Of a stretch of 32,385 bases of DNA, positions 19,056 through 32,385 are shown one piece after another. The notes beneath the pieces were generated by a model, which worked only from the letters and a program-made list of their open reading frames with translations, did no database searches and was not told the DNA's origin. Numbering within the stretch: the stretch's first letter is position 1; each line of letters starts with the position of its first letter. The position numbers and the translations under genes are program-made. This DNA comes from Bacteroidaceae bacterium (lineage in GTDB: Bacteria > Bacteroidota > Bacteroidia > Bacteroidales > Bacteroidaceae). Location of the stretch: the NCBI GenBank assembly GCA_017503235.1, contig JAFVTL010000033.1, positions 1 through 32,385 of the forward strand. The letters are read 5' to 3'.

Positions 19056-20360
19056 CTATCGCTTATATCGTTTCTTTAATGAAAAGTCAAACCGGAGTCC
19101 TCCATTGGGACGATTCATCACAGTGATTGAGCCCTCGTGAAACTGTACGGCATGCTTGACAATAGCAAGCCCAAGACCTGTACCACCTTTTTGGCGGGAG
19201 CGGCCTTTGTCTACCCGATAAAAACGTTCAAAAAGACGAGGTAATTGTTTATCTTGAACCCCTTTACCGTCATCTTCGAATCGGATGCGGCACATTTCAT
19301 CGTTATTCTCAAGTAAAGTTATATAGATGTTTTTCCCTTCTGAATAGGCAATGGCATTCTCTGTAAGATTGCGAAAGATGGAACCTATCAAGGACAGATT
19401 TCCTTCGACAACGACCTTTTCACTGAAATGAGTATGCAGTGTCAAACGTTCATCGTCGGGCATAACCTCCAGTTCCTTATCCACTTCATTGATTATATCG
19501 TTGATGACAACCGGTTCTTTGCTGATTAGAGCACTTCCATCCTCCATGCGTGTGATGAGCGAGACATCATTCAACAAGCGGCGAAGGCGTTCGTTGTGCA
19601 TGTAACATCGTCCAATCAACTCCTGCCGTTTCTCGTCGCTCAGGCTGATACCTGAAAGCAAGGTTTCAAGACACACTTGAATGGAGGCGACTGGTGTCTT
19701 CAGTTCGTGGTTGATATTGTTGGTGAGCTGTCGTTTGAGGCGACTCTTCTCTTGCTCGGATTCATAACGATTGACACGCTCAATATCTTTACCGAGTTTC
19801 CGAGTGGTAAAATAGGCCAGGATACTCATTACGAGAGTGATTGAAATCATTATAATAAGGAATGTCCAGTCGGCTTCAAGCAAGTCGTTCAGTGTGCTTG
19901 AATACGGGATGGCCGTACGAACAATGGCTCTTTCGCCTCGTGTTGCCGAATAGAAGTATTCGCGTCCGTCGCTTGTAGATTGGCGTCCGATATGATATCC
20001 GGTGCCCTTACGCAATGCTTCTGCTATCTCCGGCCGGTTGCGATGATTGTCCAGCGAATCCAACGAAATGATATTGTCATAGACAACAGCTCCCGAAAGG
20101 GTGATAAGAGATACTCTCAAGTCCTCAAACGGCTTATCGTGCGACTCAATACATTCCTCATAGGATTCTCCATCCTCAATAGCCGTAAGCAGATGGCGAT
20201 TGTATTGTTGCAATTGAGCACTTAGAAACTCTGATTTGTATTCTTTCTCCCGTACATATTGGAAGCCGATAAAACAGCAAACAATCACCCACGAAAACGC
20301 AATGAGTTGCAGAAACAACTGCTTGTGAAATGACAATTTAATCGCGGAAGCCATAACCAA
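19056..20360 (-). CDS. PhoR-like membrane sensor histidine kinase
   Basis: A 434-aa kinase with two membrane helices (about residues 15-36 and 167-186) enclosing a periplasmic domain of about 130 aa. HisKA is NNINHELKTPVASIQV with phospho-acceptor H218. The ATPase domain has NLTENAIAYS, FEDDGKGVQ, LFERFYRVDKGRSRQKGGTG and GLGLAIVKHAVQFH. It overlaps the response-regulator gene by 23 bp, so the two are translationally linked. Divergence from a Na/Pi cotransporter gene and closeness to the pst operon suggest it senses phosphate status. This is context-based, because the kinase domain itself is generic for the PhoR/ResE type. Confidence 0.88.
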   Translation of the reverse strand: MVMASAIKLSFHKQLFLQLIAFSWVIVCCFIGFQYVREKEYKSEFLSAQLQQYNRHLLTAIEDGESYEECIESHDKPFEDLRVSLITLSGAVVYDNIISLDSLDNHRNRPEIAEALRKGTGYHIGRQSTSDGREYFYSATRGERAIVRTAIPYSSTLNDLLEADWTFLIIMISITLVMSILAYFTTRKLGKDIERVNRYESEQEKSRLKRQLTNNINHELKTPVASIQVCLETLLSGISLSDEKRQELIGRCYMHNERLRRLLNDVSLITRMEDGSALISKEPVVINDIINEVDKELEVMPDDERLTLHTHFSEKVVVEGNLSLIGSIFRNLTENAIAYSEGKNIYITLLENNDEMCRIRFEDDGKGVQDKQLPRLFERFYRVDKGRSRQKGGTGLGLAIVKHAVQFHEGSITVMNRPNGGLRFDFSLKKRYKR

Positions 20361-21039
20361 AGCCTGAACGGGTAACTATATAGGAGCCATAAGCTCCAAT
20401 CTTTGAACGCAGACGGGTGATGTTTACATCAATGGTACGATCGAGTACAACCACTTCTTCGCTCCATACGCGATTCAAGATTTGCTCACGCGAACATATC
20501 TTTCCTCGATGTTGTATCAAGTAGGCCAACAACTCGAATTCCTTTCGTGTGAGTTTCACCTCAACATCGTCTATGGTGCAATGCTTAAACTCCAAATCGA
20601 GACACAAGCCATCCACCTTTAGTATATTGGATTTTTCGGCAGACAAGTTGTTGGTATTCTTTTGCAGAGATGTGCGACGCAAAACACTTTTGACACGTGC
20701 AATGACGTTTCTGATGGTATAAGGTTTCACGATGTAATCGTCGGCTCCCAAATTCAAGCCCATTACCATATCATCTTCAGTATCGCGTGCCGTACAGAAA
20801 ATAATAGGAATATCGGCAGTCATTACGTTAGCCTTCAACATCTTTGCCATCTTTATACCACTAATTTCACCCATCATGATATCAAGCAGAATCAGTGAAT
20901 AAGAATGAAGGTCGTAGGTCAATGCCTGCTCCGCACTTAGAGCTACATCCACATCGTAGCCCTCGTTCTCCAGATTGAGTTTCAAGACCTCACATAGAGT
21001 CTCCTCATCGTCCACTATCAATATACGCTTCGCTGCCAT
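20338..21039 (-). CDS. PhoB-like OmpR-family response regulator
   Basis: A 233-aa DNA-binding regulator. The receiver domain has ILIVDDEETL, phospho-acceptor D53 (LILLDIMMGEISG), the conserved T (FCTARDTEDD) and K (ADDYIVKPY). The C-terminal winged helix includes LTRKEFELLAYLIQHRGKICSREQIL and a recognition helix region RTIDVNITRLRSKIG. The start was set at ATG 21039, because an in-frame ATG at 21063 overlaps the -7 box at 21061-21068. It overlaps the kinase gene by 23 bp. It is the obvious candidate to bind the three direct-repeat boxes at 21161, 23096 and 27207. No such box is seen in its own promoter. Confidence 0.9.
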   Translation of the reverse strand: MAAKRILIVDDEETLCEVLKLNLENEGYDVDVALSAEQALTYDLHSYSLILLDIMMGEISGIKMAKMLKANVMTADIPIIFCTARDTEDDMVMGLNLGADDYIVKPYTIRNVIARVKSVLRRTSLQKNTNNLSAEKSNILKVDGLCLDLEFKHCTIDDVEVKLTRKEFELLAYLIQHRGKICSREQILNRVWSEEVVVLDRTIDVNITRLRSKIGAYGSYIVTRSGFGYGFRD

Positions 21040-21060
21040 ATACTTATTATTATTGTCATG

Positions 21061-21068
21061 CAAATTTA
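21061..21068 (-). promoter_or_regulatory. -7 box of the two-component operon
   Basis: On the minus strand it reads TAAATTTG, a perfect TAnnTTTG box, 21 nt upstream of ATG 21039. It decides the start codon, since an ATG at 21063 would lie upstream of the transcript start. Confidence 0.6.
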
Positions 21069-21160
21069 CAGAGATTTTCCAAGCCCTGTTACACCTTTGG
21101 CAAGATTTAATAAAAATGTAATATTTACCCGTCTTCCGCTTTTAATCAAATCCTAATTGT

Positions 21161-21197
21161 TTTGAAACATTTATGAAACAATTTCACAATACTTTTG
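21161..21197 (+). promoter_or_regulatory. Putative Pho box and -7 box, Na/Pi cotransporter gene
   Basis: TTTGAAACATTTATGAAAC (21161-21179) holds two TGAAAC half-sites at 21163 and 21174, exactly 11 bp apart. TACTTTTG at 21190-21197 begins after a 10-nt gap. The box covers the -33 position, as expected for an activator site that replaces that element. The same layout recurs at 23096 and 27207. Confidence 0.8.
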
Positions 21198-21218
21198 TAA
21201 TCGAAAAGTTATATTGTT

Positions 21219-22955
21219 ATGGGTATATTACAAATATTCACATTATTGGGAGCATTGGGTATGTTCCTTTACGGAATGAATCTTATGAGTTCCGGACTGC
21301 AAAAGGCTGCAGGTGAGAGATTAAGAAGTTTCTTGTCGGCTATGACATCCAATCCCTTTAAAGGGGTTATGACCGGATTGGGAATAACGACAATCATACA
21401 GTCTTCATCGGCAACCACGGTAATGGTTGTCAGCTTTGTCAATGCCGGTCTTTTGACCCTTGCACAAGCTATCGGGGTTATCATGGGGGCTAACATTGGT
21501 ACAACGGTTACAGCATGGATGGTTTCATGGCTGGGTTTTAAAGCTGACATCTCAATCCTTGCAGTGCCGTTGATGTTGTTTGGCTTCCTTTTTTCCAACT
21601 CCAAGAAAGACCAGCGCAAGAATATCGGTGAGCTGATAGTAGGTTTTTCACTGTTATTCCTCGGGCTCTCATTTATGAAAGAGTCGGTACCCGACTTAAG
21701 AGAAACTCCACAAGTCTTGGAGTTTGTAAGCACATGGTCGTCACATGGTTTCGGTTCTGTCCTATTATTCCTTGCTTTCGGCACCATACTGACTCTTGTG
21801 TTGCAATCCTCCTCTGCAACCATGGCCATTACACTTATCATGCTGAGCATGGGTTGGATACCGTTCAATATGGCTTGTGCCATGGTACTTGGTGAAAACA
21901 TTGGAACGACCATTACCGCAAACATTGCAGCATCTGTCGGAAACACGCTGGCAAAACGTGCGGCTCTGTCACACACCATATTCAATGTATTCGGTGTCAT
22001 GTGGGCATTGATTCTCTACAAGCCCTTTTTGCAATTGGTCGGAATCATTACTGAGAGTCTGTTCAGCTTGCCCAATCCGGCAGCAGAAGGTTTTGTGGTG
22101 ACGGAATCTACTTCACCCGAAGGAACGGCAGCCCTGTATGGTTTGTCCATGTTGCATACCGTCTTTAACCTGACCAACACCTTGTTGTTGGTTTGGTTTA
22201 CCAAGTGGATTGCTCAAGCTGTAAGCTGGATAATACCCACTCCTAAGAATCAGGAAAAGGAAGTGTTCAGACTTCAATACATATCAGCAGGCCCTCTCTC
22301 GACTCCTGAATTATCTGTAGGACAGGCTTTCGACGAAATCATCCATTTTGCGAAAATTTCAAAGAATGGAGCCATGTATGCACAGAGCGCAATCAACGAA
22401 GCCGATACCGACAAGTTTGAGGAATACAGAGAGAAGCTCGTGAAATATGAAGAGATTTCAGACCGCATAGAGTACGAAATTGCCACATTCCTGAATGGAG
22501 TGTCAACAGAAGAAATCAGCGAAAGCACCTCTATAAAGATAAAGGCCATGTACAAGATTATCGGTGAATTGGAATCATTGGGCGATTCTGGTGAAACCAT
22601 CAGCCGTATTCTGTCAAGAAAGAATATACACAAGAAACAATTCGATTCGGATACCATCAAGAATCTCAATATGATGGCAGATGCCGTAGGCGATGCGTAT
22701 GATGTCATGATTGCTAATTTGACAGCTGCCGGTAAGGGTGAATTGACCGACATTTCAAATGCCTATAATGCCGAAGACCGTCTGAATACGTTGAGAAACA
22801 ATCTTCGGGATGCAGTCATTGAAGATATAGAAAACGACAGCAAGAATTATCAGACAAGTGTGTATTATATGGACATTGTCAATACTTACGAGCACATGGG
22901 TGACTTTATGATTAATGTGTCTCAAGACCTTGAGAGAGGGTTTATACATAGATAA
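21219..22955 (+). CDS. Na+/phosphate cotransporter with C-terminal PhoU-like domain
   Basis: Inner-membrane sodium-driven phosphate carrier of the NptA/YjbB type. It has 578 aa. Two inverted Na_Pi repeats are visible: QSSSATT at residue 61 with GANIGTT, and QSSSATM at residue 196 with GENIGTT. Eight or more hydrophobic helices lie in the first 345 residues. Residues about 365-570 form a helical, charged PhoU-like tail, probably regulatory. It is divergent from the two-component operon, preceded by a putative Pho box, and followed by a strong terminator, so it is a single-gene unit. Induction under phosphate limitation is inferred from the box and context. Confidence 0.93.
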   Translation: MGILQIFTLLGALGMFLYGMNLMSSGLQKAAGERLRSFLSAMTSNPFKGVMTGLGITTIIQSSSATTVMVVSFVNAGLLTLAQAIGVIMGANIGTTVTAWMVSWLGFKADISILAVPLMLFGFLFSNSKKDQRKNIGELIVGFSLLFLGLSFMKESVPDLRETPQVLEFVSTWSSHGFGSVLLFLAFGTILTLVLQSSSATMAITLIMLSMGWIPFNMACAMVLGENIGTTITANIAASVGNTLAKRAALSHTIFNVFGVMWALILYKPFLQLVGIITESLFSLPNPAAEGFVVTESTSPEGTAALYGLSMLHTVFNLTNTLLLVWFTKWIAQAVSWIIPTPKNQEKEVFRLQYISAGPLSTPELSVGQAFDEIIHFAKISKNGAMYAQSAINEADTDKFEEYREKLVKYEEISDRIEYEIATFLNGVSTEEISESTSIKIKAMYKIIGELESLGDSGETISRILSRKNIHKKQFDSDTIKNLNMMADAVGDAYDVMIANLTAAGKGELTDISNAYNAEDRLNTLRNNLRDAVIEDIENDSKNYQTSVYYMDIVNTYEHMGDFMINVSQDLERGFIHR

Positions 22956-22978
22956 CACCTTATTATTACATTTCAGAC

Positions 22979-23018
22979 ATCGTGCCGTTCTTACAATTAA
23001 GAACGGCACGATTTTTTT
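22979..23018 (+). terminator. Rho-independent terminator after Na/Pi cotransporter
   Basis: A perfect 14-bp stem (22979-22992 with 22999-23012), loop ACAATT, and a run of seven T. The stem is GC-rich (CGTGCCGTTCTT). Confidence 0.92.
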
Positions 23019-23095
23019 ATGACTATTATTTGTAATAGTGAATGCAACTCAGAATAATTCCTTTTGAAATAGGTTTTTAATAAATGCTCATTTTT

Positions 23096-23132
23096 TTTGA
23101 AATCTTTATGAAATCATACCGCGATACCTTTG
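23096..23132 (+). promoter_or_regulatory. Putative Pho box and -7 box, TonB receptor/phosphatase operon
   Basis: TTTGAAATCTTTATGAAAT (23096-23114) has TGAAAT half-sites at 23098 and 23109, 11 bp apart, then a 10-nt gap and TACCTTTG at 23125-23132. An isolated extra TTTTGAAAT lies at 23062-23070. The spacing is identical to the boxes at 21161 and 27207. Confidence 0.8.
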
Positions 23133-23165
23133 CGGTGTCAAATTTAAATTTAATAAACGAAAAAA

Positions 23166-26015
23166 ATGAAGACAATGTTGAAAACAATTTTATCATTATT
23201 GTTGATGGTAGGATTTAGTCAAGCAATCTATGCAGAAAACAAAATTCCAGAACCCAAAAACGGAGCCATCAGTGGGCGAGTAATCGACAATGCACAACAA
23301 ACCTTGCCTGGAGCTTCTATCTACATTGAGAAGTTGCATACAGGAGTTATCAGCGACATCGATGGCTTTTACTCATTGCCAAATCTGGAACCCGGCGAGT
23401 ATATTGTTAAAGTGACTTATGTGGGTTATGAACCCATAGAAATGAAACTGACAGTGCCTGAAGGAAAGACCTTGGAATATGATATTGTAATGAACGAAGG
23501 TATCGAACTGCAACAAATAGAAGTAAAAGGAGCCTTCCAAGGACAAAAACGGGCAGTGAATATGCAGAAGAATGCAATGGGGGTAAAAAATGTAGTTTCT
23601 GCCGATCAAGTAGGAAAATTCCCGGATTCTAATATCGGCGATGCCCTTAAACGTATCAATGGTATCAATGTGCAATATGATATGGGTGAGGCCCGCTTCG
23701 GTCAGGTAAGAGGTACCAGTGCCGACTTGACTTCCGTGACCGTGAACGGAAACCGTATACCTTCGGCCGAAGGAGATACGCGTAACGTACAGCTTGACTT
23801 GATACCAGCCGACATGGTACAAACTATCGAAGTGAGCAAAGTGGTTACCAGTGATATGGATGGCGATGCTATTGGGGGAGCCATCAACCTTGTGACAAAG
23901 AATACACCTTATAAAAGAGTGTTGAATGCAACCGCAGGAAGCGGATACAATTGGGTCGCCGATAAGATGCAGCTCAACTTGGGCTTGACATATGGTGACC
24001 GTTATTTCGATGATAAATTAGGTGTGATGTTGGCAGCAAGCTATCAGAATGCACCGGGTGGAGCAGACAATGTGGAGTTTGAATACGATGTGGATGACGA
24101 TGGAAAGGTTTATCTCGACAAGGCCGAAATGCGTCAGTATTATGTCACCCGTGAACGCCAAAGCTATTCGTTGGCTGCCGATTATCAGTTCAATCCCAAT
24201 AATAAGATATCGTTCAAAGGGATGTACAATCGCCGAAGCGATTGGGAGAACCGTTATCGCATCACTTACAAGAAATTGAACGATGCACCTTCCAAGCAAT
24301 CCATCGTATTGCAGACCAAAGGTGGTTTAGACGACAATCGGAATGCTCGTTTGGAATTGCAACAGACAATGGACTTCACCCTCGATGGGGAACACTCCTT
24401 CGGACGATTGAATATGGATTGGGCAGCTTCCTATTCACGAGCTACCGAAGACCGTCCAGACGAACGTTACTTCGGGGTGGCGATGAAGGGAAAGAAGAAT
24501 GAGGACTATTTCAGTGGCTTGCAATTCGTGAACGCCGGTGGACGCAATCCTTATCCGAATAAAGGCATCGGACAATTGAGTGGCTATGACTGGAGCATTG
24601 ACGAACTGACTAATTCTGATCAGGAAATCAGTGAAAATGAATGGAAGTTCCGCTTGAACTTCGAACTCCCTCTTAATCAAGGTCTTTATGCCAATAAACT
24701 TCGTTTCGGTGCCAAATACACCGACAAGTCGAAGGAGAAGGAAGTGCATTGCTTTGACTATATCGAACCCTACGAAGAAACGTACGATGAGGCTTGGATG
24801 AACCAACTGAACGGACAAATCCGTAGCGGATTCATGCCTGAAGGGAATTATCCTATAAATACTTCTTTCGTAACGAAAGAGTATCTGGGAAGTTTGACAA
24901 TGAATCCTACACAAGCAGGTGCATACGAACTTTATGAAGAAGCATCGGGTAACTACAAGGCCAGCGAAAAGATAACCAGTGCTTATTTGCGTTTCGACCA
25001 ACAGTTGGGTAGCAAGTTCGACATGGTGTTTGGCCTTCGCATGGAGCATACGGCACTGAACTATAACGGATTCAATTGGGTGGTAGATGATTTGGAAGAC
25101 GAACAGGGCCGATTGGAAGCCACCGGTGAAAAGAAGAATGATTATACCAACTGGTTGCCGAGCATCCTGATGAAGTACAACGCCACCGACGATTTGAAGT
25201 TCCGTGCTTCGTTCACCAAGACCTTGTCGCGTCCCAAGTATTCGGCGCTTGTGCCTTGCATCCATTACAACATCGCCGAGGAGGAAGCAAGATTCGGTAA
25301 TGCCAATCTAAAACCGACCACGTCCTATAACTTCGACCTCAGTGGTGAATACTATTTCGAGAGCGTGGGATTAGTGAGCCTAGGCTTCTTCTACAAGAAT
25401 GTGAAGGATGTCATTGCCGACGAGAAATGGAAATCGACCAACGACCCGAACATCCCGGCAGGTCTCCTGAACGAAGACGGAGAACCGGTGAAGTACGAAA
25501 TCACCAAGCCCGTCAATGCGTATGATGCCGACCTCTTCGGCTTGGAGTTCGCCTATCAGCGTGACTTCGGTTTCATCGCCCCGGCCTTGAAGTGCATCGG
25601 TTTCTATGGCACTTATACCTATACGCACAGCTCGACCAAGAACCACCGGTTCGAGCATCGCACGGTGGAAGAAGGCGAGGACATCAAGATGACCGGTTCG
25701 CCGGAACATACCGCCAATGCTTCGCTTTATTACGAGAAGAAGGGACTGAACGTGAGACTTTCCTATAACTTCGCATCCGAATTTGTGGATGAGTTCGGTA
25801 CCGTGGCTGCCCTTGACCGATATTATGACAAGGTGAACTACCTGGATGCCAATGCCAGCTATACCTTTGGCGACAAGTTCAAGACCACTTTCTATGTGGA
25901 AGCCAACAACCTCCTCAACCAACCCTTGCGCTATTATCAAGGCACGAAGGACAGAACGATGCAAGCAGAATATTATGGCGTTCGTCTGAATGCCGGAGTA
26001 AAAATTAACTTTTAA
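23166..26015 (+). CDS. TonB-dependent receptor of the phosphate island
   Basis: A 949-aa outer-membrane receptor. The signal peptide is at about residues 1-24 (LSLLLMVGFSQAIYA). A carboxypeptidase-regulatory-like domain covers about 35-115 (GAISGRVIDNAQQTLPGAS). The plug has KFPDSNIGDALKRINGINVQ and DMDGDAIGGAINLVTKNTP, which are typical of large FPDSN-type receptors. The barrel runs to a C-terminal ...YGVRLNAGVKINF. No SusD follows. Instead a secreted metallophosphatase starts 12 nt downstream, and the promoter carries the putative Pho box. The likely cargo is a phosphorylated organic compound or another phosphorus source, but the ligand is inferred only. Confidence 0.93.
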   Translation: MKTMLKTILSLLLMVGFSQAIYAENKIPEPKNGAISGRVIDNAQQTLPGASIYIEKLHTGVISDIDGFYSLPNLEPGEYIVKVTYVGYEPIEMKLTVPEGKTLEYDIVMNEGIELQQIEVKGAFQGQKRAVNMQKNAMGVKNVVSADQVGKFPDSNIGDALKRINGINVQYDMGEARFGQVRGTSADLTSVTVNGNRIPSAEGDTRNVQLDLIPADMVQTIEVSKVVTSDMDGDAIGGAINLVTKNTPYKRVLNATAGSGYNWVADKMQLNLGLTYGDRYFDDKLGVMLAASYQNAPGGADNVEFEYDVDDDGKVYLDKAEMRQYYVTRERQSYSLAADYQFNPNNKISFKGMYNRRSDWENRYRITYKKLNDAPSKQSIVLQTKGGLDDNRNARLELQQTMDFTLDGEHSFGRLNMDWAASYSRATEDRPDERYFGVAMKGKKNEDYFSGLQFVNAGGRNPYPNKGIGQLSGYDWSIDELTNSDQEISENEWKFRLNFELPLNQGLYANKLRFGAKYTDKSKEKEVHCFDYIEPYEETYDEAWMNQLNGQIRSGFMPEGNYPINTSFVTKEYLGSLTMNPTQAGAYELYEEASGNYKASEKITSAYLRFDQQLGSKFDMVFGLRMEHTALNYNGFNWVVDDLEDEQGRLEATGEKKNDYTNWLPSILMKYNATDDLKFRASFTKTLSRPKYSALVPCIHYNIAEEEARFGNANLKPTTSYNFDLSGEYYFESVGLVSLGFFYKNVKDVIADEKWKSTNDPNIPAGLLNEDGEPVKYEITKPVNAYDADLFGLEFAYQRDFGFIAPALKCIGFYGTYTYTHSSTKNHRFEHRTVEEGEDIKMTGSPEHTANASLYYEKKGLNVRLSYNFASEFVDEFGTVAALDRYYDKVNYLDANASYTFGDKFKTTFYVEANNLLNQPLRYYQGTKDRTMQAEYYGVRLNAGVKINF

Positions 26016-26027
26016 AAGAACAGAACA

Positions 26028-26963
26028 ATGAAAAGAATGACAACATGGGCCATCCTGCTGATGGCAACCCTTATCGCTTTTGCCCAAACTCCTGAACAAT
26101 GGGCTACCTTGAAGAAAGACATTAACTTCTTTCTCGCCAACGACCTTGGACGGAACGGATATTATGACCAGAAGCCCATCGCAGAACTGATGGGCGTGAT
26201 GGCCGAAGAAATCGGTCCCGAATGTGTGTTGGCTGCTGGTGACGTGCATCACTTCGATGGTGTGCAGAGCATCCATGATCCGTTGTGGATGACCAACTAT
26301 GAACTTATTTATAGCCATCCAGAACTGATGATCGACTGGCTCCCGATTTTGGGAAATCACGAATATCGGGGAAGTACACAGGCTGTGATGGACTATTCGG
26401 ACGTAAGCCGTCGTTGGGAGATGCCTGCCCGTTACTATACCCGTGTCTATGAAGAAGAAGGTACATCTATTCGTATCGTGATGGTAGATACCACTCCGTT
26501 GATGAGCAAGTATCGCGAAGAAAATCAGAAATACCCCGAAGCTTGTCTTCAAGACAATGAAAAGCAGTTGGCTTGGGTCGATTCTGTCTTGAATGTAGCA
26601 AAGGAAGATTGGGTGATAGTAGTAGGTCATCATCCAATCTTTGCTGAAACATCGAAGGATGAAAGTGAACGTCTGGATATGCAGAACACATTGGATAAGG
26701 TGCTTCGCAAGTATCCGAAAGTGGCGATGTATCTGTGCGGACATATCCACAATTTCCAACACATCCGCGTACCAGGCAGTTCAATAGATTATGTGGTCAA
26801 CTCATCAGCTTCACTCAGTCGTAAAGTCAAACCAATAGAGGGTACGCAGTTCTGTAGCCCCGAAACCGGTTTCTCGGTGATAGCTGCGAATGAGAAGGAA
26901 CTCTGCGTACATATGATAGATAAGAATGGCAATGTATTGCACACGATAAAGAGATGCAAATAA
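26028..26963 (+). CDS. Secreted TRAP-like (acid phosphatase) metallophosphoesterase
   Basis: Predicted periplasmic or surface phosphomonoesterase releasing phosphate. It has 311 aa with a signal peptide ending near FAQ (residue 20). The overall layout follows tartrate-resistant acid phosphatase: block 1 ANDLG (D39), block 2 GDVHHFDGV (D72), block 3 LGNHEY (N110, H111), block 4 VVGHHPIF (H201) and block 5 CGHIHNFQ (H239, H241). In purple acid phosphatases block 2 reads GDxxY, where Tyr binds ferric iron. Here that position is H75, so the metal centre or chemistry may differ. It lies 12 nt after the TonB receptor and is almost certainly co-transcribed with it. Confidence 0.88.
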   Translation: MKRMTTWAILLMATLIAFAQTPEQWATLKKDINFFLANDLGRNGYYDQKPIAELMGVMAEEIGPECVLAAGDVHHFDGVQSIHDPLWMTNYELIYSHPELMIDWLPILGNHEYRGSTQAVMDYSDVSRRWEMPARYYTRVYEEEGTSIRIVMVDTTPLMSKYREENQKYPEACLQDNEKQLAWVDSVLNVAKEDWVIVVGHHPIFAETSKDESERLDMQNTLDKVLRKYPKVAMYLCGHIHNFQHIRVPGSSIDYVVNSSASLSRKVKPIEGTQFCSPETGFSVIAANEKELCVHMIDKNGNVLHTIKRCK

Positions 26964-27206
26964 CTAAGGATTGTTCGGCTTCTATTAATAATATTAAAGC
27001 AGATGGAAAAAAGAAGAACAAAATCTAAGCCGTATTTCATTGAAATATAATGTCAGCGAACATTTGTGAATGAATAGTTGGGCTAAATAATGCTCCTTTT
27101 TTCTAAGATTTCCAATTTGGAGCATTTGATTCCTCTTGTTAGAAGTGATTTCTGACGAGGGGAATCATTTATAAGGGATGTTAGTATTTCACAAAAGCCT
27201 AATTAT
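26964..27206. other. Intergenic region with two imperfect hairpins
   Basis: No credible gene is seen. AATGCTCC (27089-27096) pairs with GGAGCATT (27119-27126) over a 22-nt loop. A second hairpin immediately follows: TGATTCC at 27127-27133 with GGAATCA at 27161-27167, and further partial pairing inside. Neither ends in a clean T-run. They may end the upstream transcript or protect its 3' end. The Pho box of the porin-pst operon follows. Confidence 0.5.
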
Positions 27207-27243
27207 TTTGAAACATTTATGAAACGTTTCCCCGATACTTTTG
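27207..27243 (+). promoter_or_regulatory. Putative Pho box and -7 box, porin-pstSCAB operon
   Basis: TTTGAAACATTTATGAAAC (27207-27225) is identical over 19 bases to the box at 21161. Half-sites start at 27209 and 27220. After a 10-nt gap comes TACTTTTG (27236-27243). The ATG at 27219 lies inside this box and upstream of the -7, so translation must start at 27273. Confidence 0.85.
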
Positions 27244-27272: not shown

Positions 27273-28253
27273 ATGAAAACAAAAGTAATCTTGGCAGGTG
27301 TTTTAGCCTGCATCGGCATCAGCGCACAGGCGCAGAATGTCCAAACAGAGGAGCCTAAAGGCAAAGCGATTGTACAAGTGTTCGGAAACTTCCACACCGG
27401 TTTTGGAGCGGAAAACAATGACCGGGGATTCGAGTTGGAGCGTAGTTATCTCGGTTACGAATACAACTTTGGCAATGGACTCTCCACAAAGGCAGTTATG
27501 GATATCGGCAAATCAAGCGACGTTTCCGATTATCAGCGCATTGCCTACATCAAGAATGCAATGGTATCCTGGAAGAAAGGTGGATTGACGCTCAATGGAG
27601 GACTTATTTCAACTACACAATTCAATTTTCAAGAAAAGTTCTGGGGTTATCGTTATATCATGAAGTCGTTTCAAGATGAATATAAATTCGGTAGCAGTGC
27701 CGATTTGGGCCTGTCAGTAGCCTACAAGTTTGCCGATTGGATTTCAGCGGATGCTATTATCGTCAATGGTGAAGGCTACAAGAAGATTCAGAAGAATGAT
27801 GGTTTGAACTATGGTTTAGGCGTAACGCTTACCCCGATAAAAGGCTTTCAGATTCGCTTCTATGGAGGCTTGAATGAGAGTGGTGAAGAGGGCAAAAAGA
27901 ATATTACCAATATGGCAGCCTTTATGGGTTACAAGAACGAGAAATATACTATCGGCGCTGAATATAACTACATGAAGAACGCATCATACAAAGAAGATGC
28001 AAACCAAAGCGGTTATTCTGTTTTCACTTCAATAAATCTTTCTAAAAGCACTTCCTTGTATGCCCGATTCGACGACTTATATTCTAAAGACGATTGGAAC
28101 CTTTCAAAAGATGAGTCAGCCGCAATTCTCGGTGCTCAATTCAAACTTGGGAAGTATGTGAAGATAGCCCCGACTTTTAGAATGACTATGCCAAAGGCAG
28201 ACGAAGCAAAGAACGGATATTACGCTTATGTAAATTGCTACTTCGGATTCTAA
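27273..28253 (+). CDS. Outer-membrane beta-barrel porin-like protein, probably phosphate-related
   Basis: About 326 aa with a signal peptide (VILAGVLACIGISAQAQN). The rest is alternating polar and aromatic strands (e.g. FELERSYLGYEYNFG, LSVAYKFADWISADA, IRFYGGLNESG) ending in YAYVNCYFGF. The C-terminal Phe is typical of outer-membrane barrels. It resembles the OprO/OprP-type or generic Bacteroidetes porins but is too diverged to assign by eye. It is the first gene after the third Pho box and lies 32 nt before pstS, so it probably lets phosphate cross the outer membrane to PstS. The start was moved to ATG 27273 because the upstream ATG precedes the promoter -7. Confidence 0.82.
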   Translation: MKTKVILAGVLACIGISAQAQNVQTEEPKGKAIVQVFGNFHTGFGAENNDRGFELERSYLGYEYNFGNGLSTKAVMDIGKSSDVSDYQRIAYIKNAMVSWKKGGLTLNGGLISTTQFNFQEKFWGYRYIMKSFQDEYKFGSSADLGLSVAYKFADWISADAIIVNGEGYKKIQKNDGLNYGLGVTLTPIKGFQIRFYGGLNESGEEGKKNITNMAAFMGYKNEKYTIGAEYNYMKNASYKEDANQSGYSVFTSINLSKSTSLYARFDDLYSKDDWNLSKDESAAILGAQFKLGKYVKIAPTFRMTMPKADEAKNGYYAYVNCYFGF

Positions 28254-28285: not shown

Positions 28286-29347
28286 ATGAAAAAGTTTTTT
28301 CAGTCAGTTATGACATTGGTCATTGCAATTGCAATGGTATCGTGTGGTGGTAATTCTAATAAGAATGGTCGTGAAGCCCAAGAACTCTCGGGAGCAGGTG
28401 CTACCTTCCCACTTCCTTTCTATCATGTAGTATTCGAACAGTTTGGACAAGTAAACGGCGACCAAGTCGCATACGGTGGTATCGGTTCGGGCGGTGGTGT
28501 ACGTAATCTGCGTGACAAGATTGTCGATTTTGCAGGTAGCGATGCTTATCTTTCGGATAAGGAGATGGCAGAGATGGCTCCCGTTGTACATATCCCTACT
28601 TGTATGGGTGCTGTGGTTGTTGCCTACAATTTGGATGGTGTAGATGAGTTGAAACTAACCGGCGAACTGGTTGCCGATATTTTTGCGGGAGAAGTGAAAA
28701 TGTGGAACGATGCTCGTTTGGCAGAGTTGAATCCGGATGCAAAACTTCCCAATGAACCTATCATTCCTGTATATCGCTCAGACGGTTCGGGTACCACATT
28801 CGTTTTCACTGATTACCTCACAAAGGTAAGTCCGATGTGGGCAAGCAAATATGGTGCAGGCAAATCCGTGAACTTCTCATTTGGACAGGCCGCCAAGGGT
28901 AACCCCGGTGTAGCAGGCGTAATCAAGCAGACAAAGAATACAATTGGCTATGTGGGTTCGGAGTATGCCTTTGCACAAAACATACCTTATGCAAGCATTC
29001 AGAATCAGCGAGGTGAGTTTGTATTGCCATCATCGGCCACCATCTCGGCAGCAGCTTCAGGCGAAATTCCCGTGGACACTCGTTGCTCGATTACCAACGC
29101 CGATGCCGTTGGTGCATATCCTATTTCCACTTTTACATGGATGATTATCTATAAAGAACAGAACTATTCTGACCGTACAAAAGAACAGGCTATAGCAACA
29201 CTCGATCTCTTGAAATATATTCTTTCGGATGAGGCACAAGGTATTACATCAGAGGTTCATTATGCGCCACTTCCTGCTAAGGCCAAGGAATTGAGTATGA
29301 CCAATTTGAAGGCCGTTACTTATGACGGAGTCTCGATTATGCAATAA
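28286..29347 (+). CDS. pstS: Phosphate ABC transporter substrate-binding lipoprotein
   Basis: Captures phosphate in the periplasm for PstCAB. It has 353 aa. The lipoprotein signal ends IAMVSC, making C20 the lipidated residue, so the protein is membrane-tethered. Family motifs are present: GAGATFPLPFY, GGIGSGGGVRNL, FAGSDAYLS and PVYRSDGSGTTFVFTDYL, with the Ser/Arg/Asp residues that ligate phosphate. It lies 32 nt after the porin gene, without its own promoter box, and 9 nt before pstC. Confidence 0.96.
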   Translation: MKKFFQSVMTLVIAIAMVSCGGNSNKNGREAQELSGAGATFPLPFYHVVFEQFGQVNGDQVAYGGIGSGGGVRNLRDKIVDFAGSDAYLSDKEMAEMAPVVHIPTCMGAVVVAYNLDGVDELKLTGELVADIFAGEVKMWNDARLAELNPDAKLPNEPIIPVYRSDGSGTTFVFTDYLTKVSPMWASKYGAGKSVNFSFGQAAKGNPGVAGVIKQTKNTIGYVGSEYAFAQNIPYASIQNQRGEFVLPSSATISAAASGEIPVDTRCSITNADAVGAYPISTFTWMIIYKEQNYSDRTKEQAIATLDLLKYILSDEAQGITSEVHYAPLPAKAKELSMTNLKAVTYDGVSIMQ

Positions 29348-29356
29348 CAAACTGCC

Positions 29357-30214
29357 ATGAACGATAAAATCTATAAAGTCGTATTGTTCGCGGCAGCATT
29401 GATTATGCCGATAGTGTGCGGGGGTGTAGTGTATGCCCTCGTCACTGACGCATACGAGGCTTTCGAGCATTTTGGATTCTTCGAGTTTCTGACCTCCTCA
29501 GAGTGGAGTTATACAGATGGGGCTGAGCAGTATGGTGCCTTGCCGTTCATTACAGGCACACTGATGACAACCTTGTTGGCGCTTGTGTTTTGCATTCCTT
29601 TCTCTTTGCCCGTCGCACTGTTTGTTGGCGAATACTTCAAAGACACAATGGCAGCATCGGTATTAAGCACCGTAACCGACCTTCTGGCGGGTATTCCTTC
29701 TATCATCTATGGCTTGTGGGGATTCTACACTTTGCGTCCGCTTATAATGGTTCTCAATATCTCACCACAAGGATCAGGCATTCTTACGGCCTCATTGGTG
29801 TTGGCGATTATGATTGTACCATATGCCGCTTCACTGAGTGCCGAGTTCATCAAAATGGTGCCAAATGATTTGAAGGAGGGTGCATACAGCTTGGGAGCAA
29901 CTCGTGCTGAGGTTATTCGTAAGGTGGTATTCCCTGTGGCCGGTTCGGGTGTCTTCTCGTCTTATGTTTTGGCCATTGGTCGTGCATTGGGCGAGACAAT
30001 GACCGTAACGATGCTTATCGGCAACACCAATAACATCCCCGACTCCATCACATCCACAGGAAACTCAATGGCATCCATTATCGCCAACCAGTTTGGAGAA
30101 GCCTCCGATTTACGTTTCTCCTCCTTGATTGCCATTGGTCTTGTGTTATTCTTTATTACGGCATTCATCAATATGATTGGTAAAATGATGATTAAACGCG
30201 CAAGAATATCTTAA
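29357..30214 (+). CDS. pstC: Phosphate ABC transporter permease PstC
   Basis: Inner-membrane permease subunit, 285 aa. About six hydrophobic helices are visible, the first at residues 8-28. The conserved TDLLAGIPSIIYGLWGFY segment precedes the cytoplasmic coupling loop (KEGAYSLGATRAEVIRKVVF). IGRALGETMTVTMLIGN is the typical PstC signature. It lies 9 nt after pstS and 2 nt before pstA in the same operon. Confidence 0.95.
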   Translation: MNDKIYKVVLFAAALIMPIVCGGVVYALVTDAYEAFEHFGFFEFLTSSEWSYTDGAEQYGALPFITGTLMTTLLALVFCIPFSLPVALFVGEYFKDTMAASVLSTVTDLLAGIPSIIYGLWGFYTLRPLIMVLNISPQGSGILTASLVLAIMIVPYAASLSAEFIKMVPNDLKEGAYSLGATRAEVIRKVVFPVAGSGVFSSYVLAIGRALGETMTVTMLIGNTNNIPDSITSTGNSMASIIANQFGEASDLRFSSLIAIGLVLFFITAFINMIGKMMIKRARIS

Positions 30215-30216
30215 TT

Positions 30217-31083
30217 ATGGCAACAATCAAAATAAAGAATCGTTTGGCAAAGGATAAAGCAATGCTTTGGACAGTATGCCTGTTTGCAGCACTCACGGCT
30301 GTGCCTCTATTTGCCATCTTGGGAGAAGTGCTGCTGCGTGGATACGACCAGCTGTCGTGGTCGTTCTTTACCGAACCAACACCTACCGCCTATAAAGCGA
30401 TGAAAGCGATTGAGGCAGGCGAACCTATCCCTGGCGGTATCGCAAATGGTATTATCGGTACTCTGATTATGCTTGGCATGGCTGCTGTCTTTGCCATACC
30501 AACGGGTATCTTGTGTGGCGCATTTCTGGCTGAAAATCCCAAAAGCCGCTTTGCTCAAGTGGTAAGTTATCTCACCGATTTGTTGCAAGGTACCCCCTCT
30601 GTTATTATCGGTATTGTAACTTATATCTGGGTAGTGGTCCCAATGAAAGGTTATTCTGCCATTGCAGGAAGCGTTGCCCTATTTGTCATGATGCTTCCTT
30701 TGATTATCCGTTCAACGGAGGAAACGTTGAAAATCCTACCTGCATCGCTCAAGGAGGCGGGCTTGGCGTTGGGTGGCAATCGTGCCCGTGTGATGTTGAA
30801 AGTACAACTTCCTGCGGCATTCGGAGGAATCTTTACCGGCGTATTGCTTGCCATATCGCGTGTGATTGGCGAAACGGCACCGCTCATGTTTACCGCACTC
30901 GGTTGCTCATTCATCCGCTTTGCGATAGACAAGCCCATATCGGCGGTGCCTCTGCTTATATGGGAGTTCTTCAACGATCCCAACCTCCAAGAACTGATTT
31001 GGGGTGCGTCACTCTTTCTCTTATTATTTGTATTAACATTGAATCTTACAGCTAAGTATCTTGCTAAGAAATGGAATCAGTAA
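30217..31083 (+). CDS. pstA: Phosphate ABC transporter permease PstA
   Basis: Second inner-membrane permease subunit, 288 aa. It has a long first periplasmic loop (YDQLSWSFFTEPTPTAYKAM), then YLTDLLQGTPSVIIGIVTYI and the coupling loop LKEAGLALGGNRARVMLKVQ. ISRVIGETAPLMFTALG is typical of PstA. Its end overlaps the start of pstB by 13 bp. Confidence 0.95.
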   Translation: MATIKIKNRLAKDKAMLWTVCLFAALTAVPLFAILGEVLLRGYDQLSWSFFTEPTPTAYKAMKAIEAGEPIPGGIANGIIGTLIMLGMAAVFAIPTGILCGAFLAENPKSRFAQVVSYLTDLLQGTPSVIIGIVTYIWVVVPMKGYSAIAGSVALFVMMLPLIIRSTEETLKILPASLKEAGLALGGNRARVMLKVQLPAAFGGIFTGVLLAISRVIGETAPLMFTALGCSFIRFAIDKPISAVPLLIWEFFNDPNLQELIWGASLFLLLFVLTLNLTAKYLAKKWNQ

Positions 31084-31838
31084 CACCTATACTTGAATTT
31101 AAGAAGACTTGCGTATCCTATACCAAGCAGACGATGGCCGTAAAATATGTATCGGCCGCCATCGAACGAAACACCATCACCGCTATTATGGGGCCTTCGG
31201 GTTGTGGCAAATCTACCTTATTACGTGCTGTGAATCTGATGCACAATCTCTATCCCAATATCCGTGTGGATGGCGAGATATTATTGAATGGCGAAAACAT
31301 CCTCTCCATGGAGCCTATTGATGTGCGCCGTCGGGTGGGCATGGTCTTTCAGCGCCCTGCACCATTTCCTACCATGAGTATCTACGATAATGTGCTTTCG
31401 GGCTATGCGCTCAATGGCATCCGCTTGTCGAAAACCGAGAAGGATGAAACCGTTGAACGCTGTTTGAAGAGTGTTGCACTATGGGACGAGGTGAAGGATG
31501 TATTGAATAAGAAAGGTACTTTCCTCTCGGGTGGTCAGCAACAACGATTGTGTATCGCCCGTGCTTTGGCCATGAAACCCGATGTATTGCTGATGGACGA
31601 ACCGACCTCTGCACTCGACCCTATAGCGACGGCTCATATCGAAGAATTGATGCAGGAACTTCAAAAGGAAGTGACCATCCTCATCGTTACTCACAATATG
31701 GGACAGGCCATGCGCATATCCTCGAAGTCGATGTTTATGTACTTGGGCGAATTGGTGGAATACGGCGATACGGCTACCATGTTCTCCAATCCATCCGATG
31801 AACGCACCAAGGCTTATCTTACAGGGAAAATGGGATAA
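31071..31838 (+). CDS. pstB: Phosphate ABC transporter ATP-binding protein
   Basis: ATPase subunit, 255 aa. Walker A is GPSGCGKST (residues 41-49). The Q-loop region is VGMVFQRPAPFPTMSIYDNV, characteristic of PstB. The signature is LSGGQ (152-156), Walker B is VLLMDEPTSALDP, and the switch histidine is in VTHNMGQAMR. It starts inside the pstA coding end. phoU, which often follows pstB, is not found in the remaining 547 bases; a palindromic non-coding element lies there instead. Confidence 0.97.
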   Translation: MESVTPILEFKKTCVSYTKQTMAVKYVSAAIERNTITAIMGPSGCGKSTLLRAVNLMHNLYPNIRVDGEILLNGENILSMEPIDVRRRVGMVFQRPAPFPTMSIYDNVLSGYALNGIRLSKTEKDETVERCLKSVALWDEVKDVLNKKGTFLSGGQQQRLCIARALAMKPDVLLMDEPTSALDPIATAHIEELMQELQKEVTILIVTHNMGQAMRISSKSMFMYLGELVEYGDTATMFSNPSDERTKAYLTGKMG

Positions 31839-32123
31839 CTAATAACAGAGTGCTTTTGGGGAGGAAGCATAAAAATTAACTGAACAAAGCCACTGAATTA
31901 GCTATAAAGAGCCGTTATATTAGCTTCAAGACGATGGAATATTCGCTTTTCCACATATGTGGAAAATATCTTCCACATTATGTGGAGAACTTCTTCCACA
32001 AAATGTGGAAGAGAAATTCCACAGCATGTGGAAGAGCGAATTACTCGGCACTTTACCGCTAATTATAGGTCTGTTTATAGCTAATTTCTCCTTTATCGGG
32101 AGTTAAACACAAATGAAAAGACG
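31839..32123. other. Non-coding region after pstB, filled by nested palindromes
   Basis: No credible gene is seen. Apart from a weak TGCTT/AAGCA hairpin (31851-31869), the region is taken up by the large dyad element at 31876-32106. Confidence 0.65.
31876..32106. repeat. About 230-bp nested imperfect palindrome with four regularly spaced palindromes
   Basis: The outer arms are TTAACT (31876) with AGTTAA (32101-32106), and GAATTAGCTATAAA (31895-31908) with TTTATAGCTAATTTC (32074-32088). Inner arms are ATTCGCTTTTCCACA (31941-31955) with TGTGGAAGAGCGAAT (32027-32041), one mismatch. Inside are four copies of the TTCCACA...TGTGGAA palindrome: 31947-31966 (perfect, 20 bp), 31972-31986, 31992-32012 and 32017-32033. 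Left half-sites start at 31949, 31971, 31994 and 32017, periods of 22, 23 and 23 bp. It could be a multi-site operator, a MITE-like element, or a structured RNA. Confidence 0.85.
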
Positions 32124-32385
32124 ATGGATGAGAAACTTGAAAGACTATTGACCTTTATCTCCCCAGAAGCGAAGCAACATCTCCCTTTAACTTCTTTATC
32201 TACACGAAAGTTGAGCTTGTGAAACTTAAATATTTTATCTTTTTTTTGGGAATATTGCCAGTTGCTTCTTGATAATCTGACGGAAGGAAATGATTATTTT
32301 GGAGTGAGAGAGACCTATGGGATTCAGCTTCTCGTGAATGATAGCAAGCAAATGGTCGTTATTATGGGCATGGACTTTAATGAAG
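32124..32385 (+). pseudogene. Possible broken reading frame, running off the window
   Basis: From ATG 32124 one frame reads MDEKLERLLTFISPEAKQHL and on to a TGA at 32220-32222. It then stays open in the same frame to the window end (including FFWEYCQLLLDNLTEGNDYF and VNDSKQMVVIMGMDFNE). The sequence after the stop looks protein-like. This could be a gene interrupted by a stop codon, or two unrelated short frames. The family is not recognised and the 3' end is missing. An 8-T run at 32240-32247 lies just after the stop. Confidence 0.35.

Follow-up and report, generated by a model that had tools for sequence, protein, structure and literature searches.

In Escherichia coli, about 10 bp separate the PHO box from the -10 element downstream of it. 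The box consists of two direct repeats of an 11-nt unit, which PhoB occupies head-to-tail; its consensus depends on the species, and the most conserved unit in E. coli is CTGTCAT (PMC4415409). Here I describe three promoters in a stretch of 32,385 nt from a Bacteroidaceae bacterium (assembly GCA_017503235.1, contig JAFVTL010000033.1; hereafter the window), which share direct repeats on an 11-bp period and very probably carry PhoB operators that co-activate phosphate genes under phosphate shortage. Few bacteria of the gut are commoner than the Bacteroidaceae, and a defined operator would make the direct phosphate regulon predictable in their genomes.

A regulator of the same function has been reported in Bacteroides fragilis, under the name PhoRB (Wakimoto et al., 2013). 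Recombinant PhoB bound a 512-bp fragment of the pstC promoter of strain YCH46, leaving a control fragment unbound, and a trace of pstC expression was left in a phoB mutant; 585 PhoB-affected genes were reported, and the PhoB-dependent genes of its Table 2 include pstSCAB, the polyphosphate kinase BF2645, the permease BF3715 and the porin BF0375 (PMC3547664). These gene types match those found here behind the repeat, and the operator should allow direct targets to be separated from the 585. By term count, the main text of that paper uses “Pho box” once, as background, and does not contain “motif”, “consensus” or “binding site”. Nor does the main text of a Bacteroides regulon reconstruction (PMC3878776) contain “PhoB” or “pst”, and passages of PMC11253607 mention PhoB in references or as the name of a subfamily, and not otherwise. 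No description of a Pho box, and no mapped site, was found for the Bacteroidaceae in the open-licence PubMed Central literature (which excludes subscription papers and preprints), in line with the initial annotation of this DNA, whose author knew of no published description of the motif. New here are the operator as defined for this family, the promoter setting in which it stands and the local form TGAAAY.

The pattern TGAAAYN5TGAAAYN10TANNTTTG occurs three times on the + strand of the window, at 21163-21197, 23098-23132 and 27209-27243, each time without a mismatch. This confirms the three shared promoter sites that the initial annotation had observed, including the exact distance of 10 nt from the half-site pair to the TACYTTTG box. 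In 100 dinucleotide shuffles of the window the pattern was found 0.01 times on average and never three times, and a further 200 shuffles yielded no match. Across the 2.6-Mb assembly there are three exact matches, every one inside the window, and none to the pattern read backwards; a longer form of the pattern, allowing up to three mismatches, again returned just these sites. The assembly is 83.66% complete, and more copies may be missing from it. With a sequence-only model built from 13 window-type sites, the window sites score 53.9, 48.6 and 45.6 bits and the next-best place in the same genome 16.5 bits; as the three sites were part of the model, the informative figure is the gap to that next place. 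A chance origin was rejected on the shuffle counts and on this rarity. The Pho-box reading would have been refuted, according to the initial annotation, had the motif been equally frequent upstream of unrelated genes; in the own genome it withstands this test, with no other place within three mismatches or above 16.5 bits.

Each site is part of a longer array. Operator 1 (21141..21179, + strand) comprises TTTAAT at 21141, CCTAAT at 21152 and TGAAAC at 21163 and 21174, with the -7 box TACTTTTG (21190..21197, +) 10 nt past the last half-site. Operator 2 (23065..23114, +) comprises TGAAAT at 23065, TTTAAT at 23076, CTCATT at 23087 and TGAAAT at 23098 and 23109, followed by the -7 box TACCTTTG (23125..23132, +), and operator 3 (27187..27225, +) comprises TTTCAC at 27187, CCTAAT at 27198 and TGAAAC at 27209 and 27220, followed by TACTTTTG (27236..27243, +). 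All three keep an 11-bp period; the first two half-sites of operators 1 and 3 are degenerate, as are those at 23076 and 23087 in operator 2. The 11-bp period that had been proposed thus stands, but the number of half-sites is four to five, not two. Alignment of 18 window-type promoters in 11-bp steps places extra upstream half-sites, TTTMAY at -22 and YCTAAT at -11, with about 7.4 and 6.7 bits of information over six columns each, compared with about 1.9 bits at -33; these are related rows, aligned without a shuffle control, and single rows (L042:7793, for example) do not fit. Promoters of phoB in the commoner PhoB lineage discussed below read TGTAAY-TGTAAY-TTTCAY-NGWAAY-N10-nAnnTTTG (20 distinct rows), and the pstC promoters with enough sequence (25 distinct) give a six-unit consensus, the last unit standing 10 nt before TTTCTTTG. 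Unlike in the E. coli PHO box, four to six half-sites make up one array here.

Copies 1 and 3 are indeed identical, as had been claimed, over 20 bases rather than 19, and their operators also have the CCTAAT half-site in common. Such likeness could reflect a recent duplication of one promoter within the locus, which would leave three look-alikes devoid of function. Little agreement exists among the three promoters beyond the half-sites and the -7 box, however, and the pattern is kept across other genera while the spacers vary, which makes a duplication barely conceivable as the explanation.

The exact TGAAAY pattern is rare among relatives, being found in 5 of 60 genomes with the present one included, and one of these (G048) has a T-rich match and belongs to another family. 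In close relatives, TGAAAYN5TGAAAY precedes Na/Pi, porin, TonB or pstS genes, and in several other members of the genus the porin-pst promoter has TGAAAC or TGTAAC, then TGTAAY 11 bp further on. A relaxed pattern (TGWAAYN5TGWAAY, 9-11 nt, then nAnnTTTG) gave 18 matches in 41 stretches totalling 675,594 bases (the window and two sets of 20), all 18 with a distance of 10 nt, and no match when reversed; the same scan of 20 further stretches from the family gave nine matches in eight stretches, again all with 10 nt. A family-model search detected pstC in 75 of 149 genomes of the family. Of 20 stretches examined around pstC, 19 contain one or more TGWAAY pairs, and ten show TGTAAY-N5-TGTAAY-N5-TGAAAY on the strand of pstC. 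In the 600 bp that precede the pstC match, with either strand counted, a pair is present at 61 of 74 loci but in 7 of 1480 shuffled copies (the 74, out of 78 found in a scan of named genomes, are L274-L348 less L305, where the upstream sequence is too short; L349-L351 were dropped as not belonging to the Bacteroidota). Promoters of phoB itself carry the repeat at 21 of 29 loci of the genus, drawn from the best 30 of 59 PhoB matches, against 3 of 1450 shuffles. The upstream regions of pstS in other classes of Bacteroidota were uninformative, several of these genes lying directly behind another gene.

The -7 box TAnnTTTG, which the window promoters share, belongs together with a -33 element TTTG to the Bacteroides sigma-ABfr promoters (PMC7366714). 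As this general box is part of the motif, and some weak model matches cover mainly the -7 part, the shared sequence could be no more than the -7 and -33 elements of any Bacteroidota core promoter, set in AT-rich DNA. The window contains 35 TAnnTTTG on its two strands, though, and TGWAAY ends 10 nt upstream in three of them, the same three that have a second half-site; moreover, TTTG is missing from the stretch 17-23 nt before the -7 box in all three window promoters. Half-sites are found in its stead, from which I conclude that the operator occupies the place of the -33 element. In the upstream regions of 60 of the 74 pstC loci (those lacking a pair, and L343, excluded), TGWAAY pairs are spaced by 11 bp in 124 cases and by 22 bp in 50, with at most one case at each other spacing from 7 to 39, and nothing in the rest of the own genome exceeds 16.5 bits. 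Model scores, half-site spacing and the -7 box survey together exclude the core promoter as a full explanation, and I consider this alternative highly improbable.

To assess specificity, a 22-site model was run over 61 genomes of the genus, with strict filters by which weak matches may be missed. At E <= 1e-3 it returned 51 matches, of which 15 were in the model and 36 held out, one of the latter (G015) being letter-identical to a model site. Clear targets in phosphate uptake, or phoB, account for 20 of the 36 held-out matches: 12 pst-type porins, two Porin_O_P, two Pit (PHO4), two Na/Pi, one pstS and one phoB. Six others are plausible (four TonB receptors and two phosphoesterases), and ten have no clear link to phosphate. 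When the columns of the 22 rows were permuted, no match at E <= 0.01 was obtained in the same genomes, the best being 0.0119, and a match of any kind at E <= 1 was seen in 44 of the 61 with the permuted model, compared with all 61 with the real one. Location before phosphate-acquisition genes rather than others, which the initial annotation had proposed to test, is seen in the genus and, for all three strong matches, in the own genome. A selection of 26 weaker matches from the list (E 0.001-0.012; members of a cluster are labelled by their scanned protein) comprises four polyphosphate kinases, three porins, two Porin_O_P, one pstS, one Na/Pi, one GDPD, two phosphoesterases (one of them 380 nt away), two TonB receptors and ten others.

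The regulator encoded beside the sites, described in the initial annotation as PhoB-like, is the product of phoB (20338..21039, - strand), an OmpR/PhoB-type response regulator with Response_reg and Trans_reg_C domains. It passes the NCBI model for Bacteroides PhoB, NF053854, with 341.8 bits for a cut-off of 270, and a search of solved structures returned members of the regulator family that match over the whole length. In B. fragilis Q1F2 (L284) and S82 (L286), TGTAAC-N5-TGTAAC-N5-TGAAAC is found before pstC, with TGAAAC-N5-TGTAAT on the other strand; the fragment bound by PhoB comes from another strain, YCH46 (PMC3547664).

The repeat might nonetheless belong to another OmpR-family or second regulator of the phosphate genes, PhoB being a mere neighbour. 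OmpR-family regulators commonly bind direct repeats, a minority of matches precede genes unrelated to phosphate, and binding by the window PhoB is a prediction. On the other side, the repeat stands before phoB itself at most of the loci examined (21 of 29), phoB adjoins the sites in those window-type loci that carry phoBR, and both B. fragilis loci have the repeat before pstC, the gene whose promoter fragment is bound by PhoB in another strain; the listed E. coli PhoB sites, in addition, include some with the same TGTAAC repeat (PMC10294691). I therefore regard another regulator as unlikely, if less so than the two alternatives above, and favour PhoB operators: rarity in the own genome, the held-out targets in the genus and the identity of the regulator as a PhoB all support this assignment.

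Several observations weigh against it. In the second scan of family stretches, 12 of 20 were without a full match, and the pair is absent from 8 of the 29 phoB promoters and from 13 of the 74 pstC loci (L330-L341 and L348). These 13 come from metagenome-assembled genomes that bear the labels Bacteroidales, Coprenecus, Cryptobacteroides or uncultured bacterium; ahead of pstC their DNA reads, by eye, as pstS coding sequence, so that they provide no test of the box. No clear 11-bp array is seen by eye before the phoB of the window, on its strand, unlike many phoB genes of the common lineage. As to the held-out matches, 12 of the 20 clear targets are pst-type porins, mostly of an operon already in the model; because these repeat the modelled operon, the new gene types (two Pit, two Porin_O_P, one phoB and one pstS) carry more weight. 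The four TonB receptors have no assigned substrate, and the two phosphoesterases lie about 400 nt from their match. The ten matches without a clear phosphate link include three before an unnamed 296-aa protein, five of a palindromic type (three before a protein of about 216 aa, two with no gene found near), one before a GH92 gene and one 328 nt from a CN hydrolase gene. Finally, the -7 box is lost on permutation as well, and this control alone therefore does not tell the Pho box apart from the core promoter; the half-site spacing counts and the survey of the 35 TAnnTTTG do.

If the three arrays are PhoB operators, the following sequence of events can be proposed. At low phosphate, PhoR would phosphorylate PhoB, and the phosphorylated protein would bind the repeats head-to-tail. 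The four half-sites (five before the TonB gene), recurring every 11 bp, would lie on one face of the DNA, and the strongest pair, TGAAAY-N5-TGAAAY, would adjoin the core promoter. The last PhoB, 10 nt from the -7 box, would then take the part of the -33 element and recruit RNA polymerase that carries the primary sigma factor of the Bacteroidota, and the genes behind the three operators (Na/Pi symporter, TonB receptor and phosphoesterase, porin-pstSCAB) would be induced together. The sites, their geometry, their rarity in the own genome, their conservation with phosphate genes and the identity of the neighbouring regulator are results of the sequence analysis, and binding by the window PhoB, the response to phosphate and the contact with polymerase are inferred. 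The operator also suggests how an activator may replace the -33 element at Bacteroidota sigma promoters, at a fixed distance from the -7 box.

How far the half-site departs from that of E. coli depends on the relatives considered. The window unit TGAAAY differs by two bases from E. coli TGTCAY, and the family-wide unit TGTAAY by one, while TTTCAY is present in the phoB arrays. Sites bound by E. coli PhoB in ChIP-seq include TGTAACCCGTATGTAACA, TGTAATACGGTTGAAACG and TTTCATAAATCTGTCATA, and halves of TGTAAC or TGAAAC are seen among the sites listed there; two sites are reported before E. coli phoB, and a strict core-promoter spacing is expected (PMC10294691). Judged by their letters, the units TGTAAY, TGAAAY and TTTCAY fall within the range of the listed E. 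coli sites. The half-site had been presented as specific to Bacteroidetes; in this strong sense the proposal was dropped, once TGTAAY had proved to be family-wide and its repeat to occur in E. coli sites. The core element does differ, as E. coli has the sigma-70 -10 and the window promoters the Bacteroidota -7 box. In another Bacteroidota lineage, Riemerella anatipestifer, a DAP-seq motif is available for the phosphate-linked response regulator PhoP; its most conserved part, TTTAACA, was likened to the ArcA motif (PMC9603813), whereas here TTTAAY is found only as a distal half-site. Upstream of the porin-like gene in two order-level relatives (L057 and L058), direct repeats of TTAAC type in 11-bp steps were seen by eye; they resemble the Riemerella PhoP motif, and another Pho half-site in the phylum is possible.

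On the sequences compared, the form TGAAAY is a local one, and most of its occurrences go with a diverged lineage of PhoB. The nine window-type PhoB proteins differ from 35 of the common lineage at several positions of the DNA-binding domain, having Ser212, Ser219, Ser225 and Gly230 where the latter have Lys, Lys/Gln, Leu and Cys; five further diverged proteins were excluded from the 35, and these are mixed (Ser225 and Gly230 in L144, Ser225 in L387 and L090). The 12 window-type stretches contain 21 TGWAAY pairs, 20 of them TGAAAY/TGAAAY; the remaining one is in L144, whose PhoB is 67% identical. Of 13 other porin promoters, 12 have TGTAAY as their second unit (L148 and L151 among the 12, L156 the exception), and forward pairs before phoB are TGTAAY/TGTAAY at 32 of 32 loci, some of which are one genome counted twice. 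Three near-complete genomes of other genera with a window-type locus (G108, G095 and G239) yielded only a window-type PhoB, and G120 carries a second, different PhoB.

It is conceivable, though on balance doubtful, that two Pho-box dialects diverged within the Bacteroidaceae together with two PhoB lineages. The window lineage would then read TGAAAY-HTTTA-TGAAAY and the common lineage prefer TGTAAY, and one PhoB would replace the other along with its boxes. A strict switch of specificity was not accepted: L156 (G087) has TGAAAT/TGAAAT and yet a PhoB (L373) outside the window type, the unit beside the -7 box is NGAAAY or NGTAAY in phoB arrays of the common lineage, G009 has window-type boxes and only a common-lineage PhoB was found in it (at 79% completeness), and PhoB lineage is confounded with descent.

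Downstream of operator 1 lies the gene for a Na/Pi cotransporter (21219..22955, +; Na_Pi_cotrans 209.5 bits, TIGR00704 over its cut-off), whose C-terminus has a PhoU-like domain (PhoU, 31.3 bits). Operator 2 precedes a TonB-dependent receptor gene (23166..26015, +; TonB_dep_Rec_b-barrel and Plug, with TIGR01782 over its cut-off at 504.4 bits) and, starting 12 nt past it, that of a calcineurin-like phosphoesterase (26028..26963, +; Metallophos 54.8 bits). Behind operator 3, the first gene of the pst operon encodes a putative porin-like outer-membrane protein (27273..28253, +). Neither Pfam nor NCBIfam gives a match for this protein itself; one homologue has weak BBP2 and Porin_4 matches, under the cut-offs, and in many relatives the gene precedes pstS. 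Its open reading frame (ORF) as mechanically called begins at 27219, within operator 3. There follow, all on the + strand, pstS (28286..29347; TIGR00975, 326.3 bits, cut-off 205), pstC (29357..30214; TIGR02138, 283.3 bits, cut-off 196.45), pstA (30217..31083; TIGR00974, 238.7 bits, cut-off 193.45) and pstB (31071..31838; TIGR00972, 343.6 bits, cut-off 343.2). The single pstSCAB operon differs from B. fragilis, in which pstS and pstCAB are divergent (PMC3547664). Past pstB (31838-32385), the window has no ORF of at least 60 aa, while a PhoU-like domain is found at the C-terminus of the symporter.

Next to phoB, a gene at 19056..20345 (- strand) encodes a sensor histidine kinase with HisKA and HATPase_c domains. 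Its best NCBIfam match, to the Bacteroides PhoR model NF053855, reaches 432.6 bits for a cut-off of 500; the protein has 429 aa for a model of 583 positions, and its best stretch covers positions 352-583 of the profile, that is, the kinase half. By these matches it is a PhoR-like kinase, short of certification as PhoR. Homologues in L042, L089 and L140, at 64-66% identity, align with it over a greater length, and those in L139 and L141, at 81%, have no extra length, so the sensor part seems to vary. The upstream region of phoB (21040-21140, - strand) contains the TAnnTTTG box TAAATTTG and a single TGTAAC. PstC of the window is 87-92% identical to that of other genera (G108, G239 twice, G095 and G120), 71-73% identical to that of the matched genomes of its own genus, and 91-96% identical to that of less complete own-genus relatives (G006, G009 and G029). 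On these identities, transfer between genera, or retention from an older lineage, may account for the phoBR-pst locus.

Two further elements were encountered in the genus. A palindromic promoter element of the type AATAGGGATGTAACAT-TGCATCCCTATTTTTG recurs in L209, L213, L228, L233, L241, L248, L253 and L259, and in six of the eight it precedes the protein of about 216 aa, one scanned copy of which has no Pfam match; by its sequence it looks like a Pho-box-like yet different element. For the unnamed 296-aa protein (L206, L231 and L232), no Pfam match was obtained with the copy scanned; in three genomes a TGAAAY-TGTAAC box precedes it at the usual distance, and its gene is possibly a new Pho gene.

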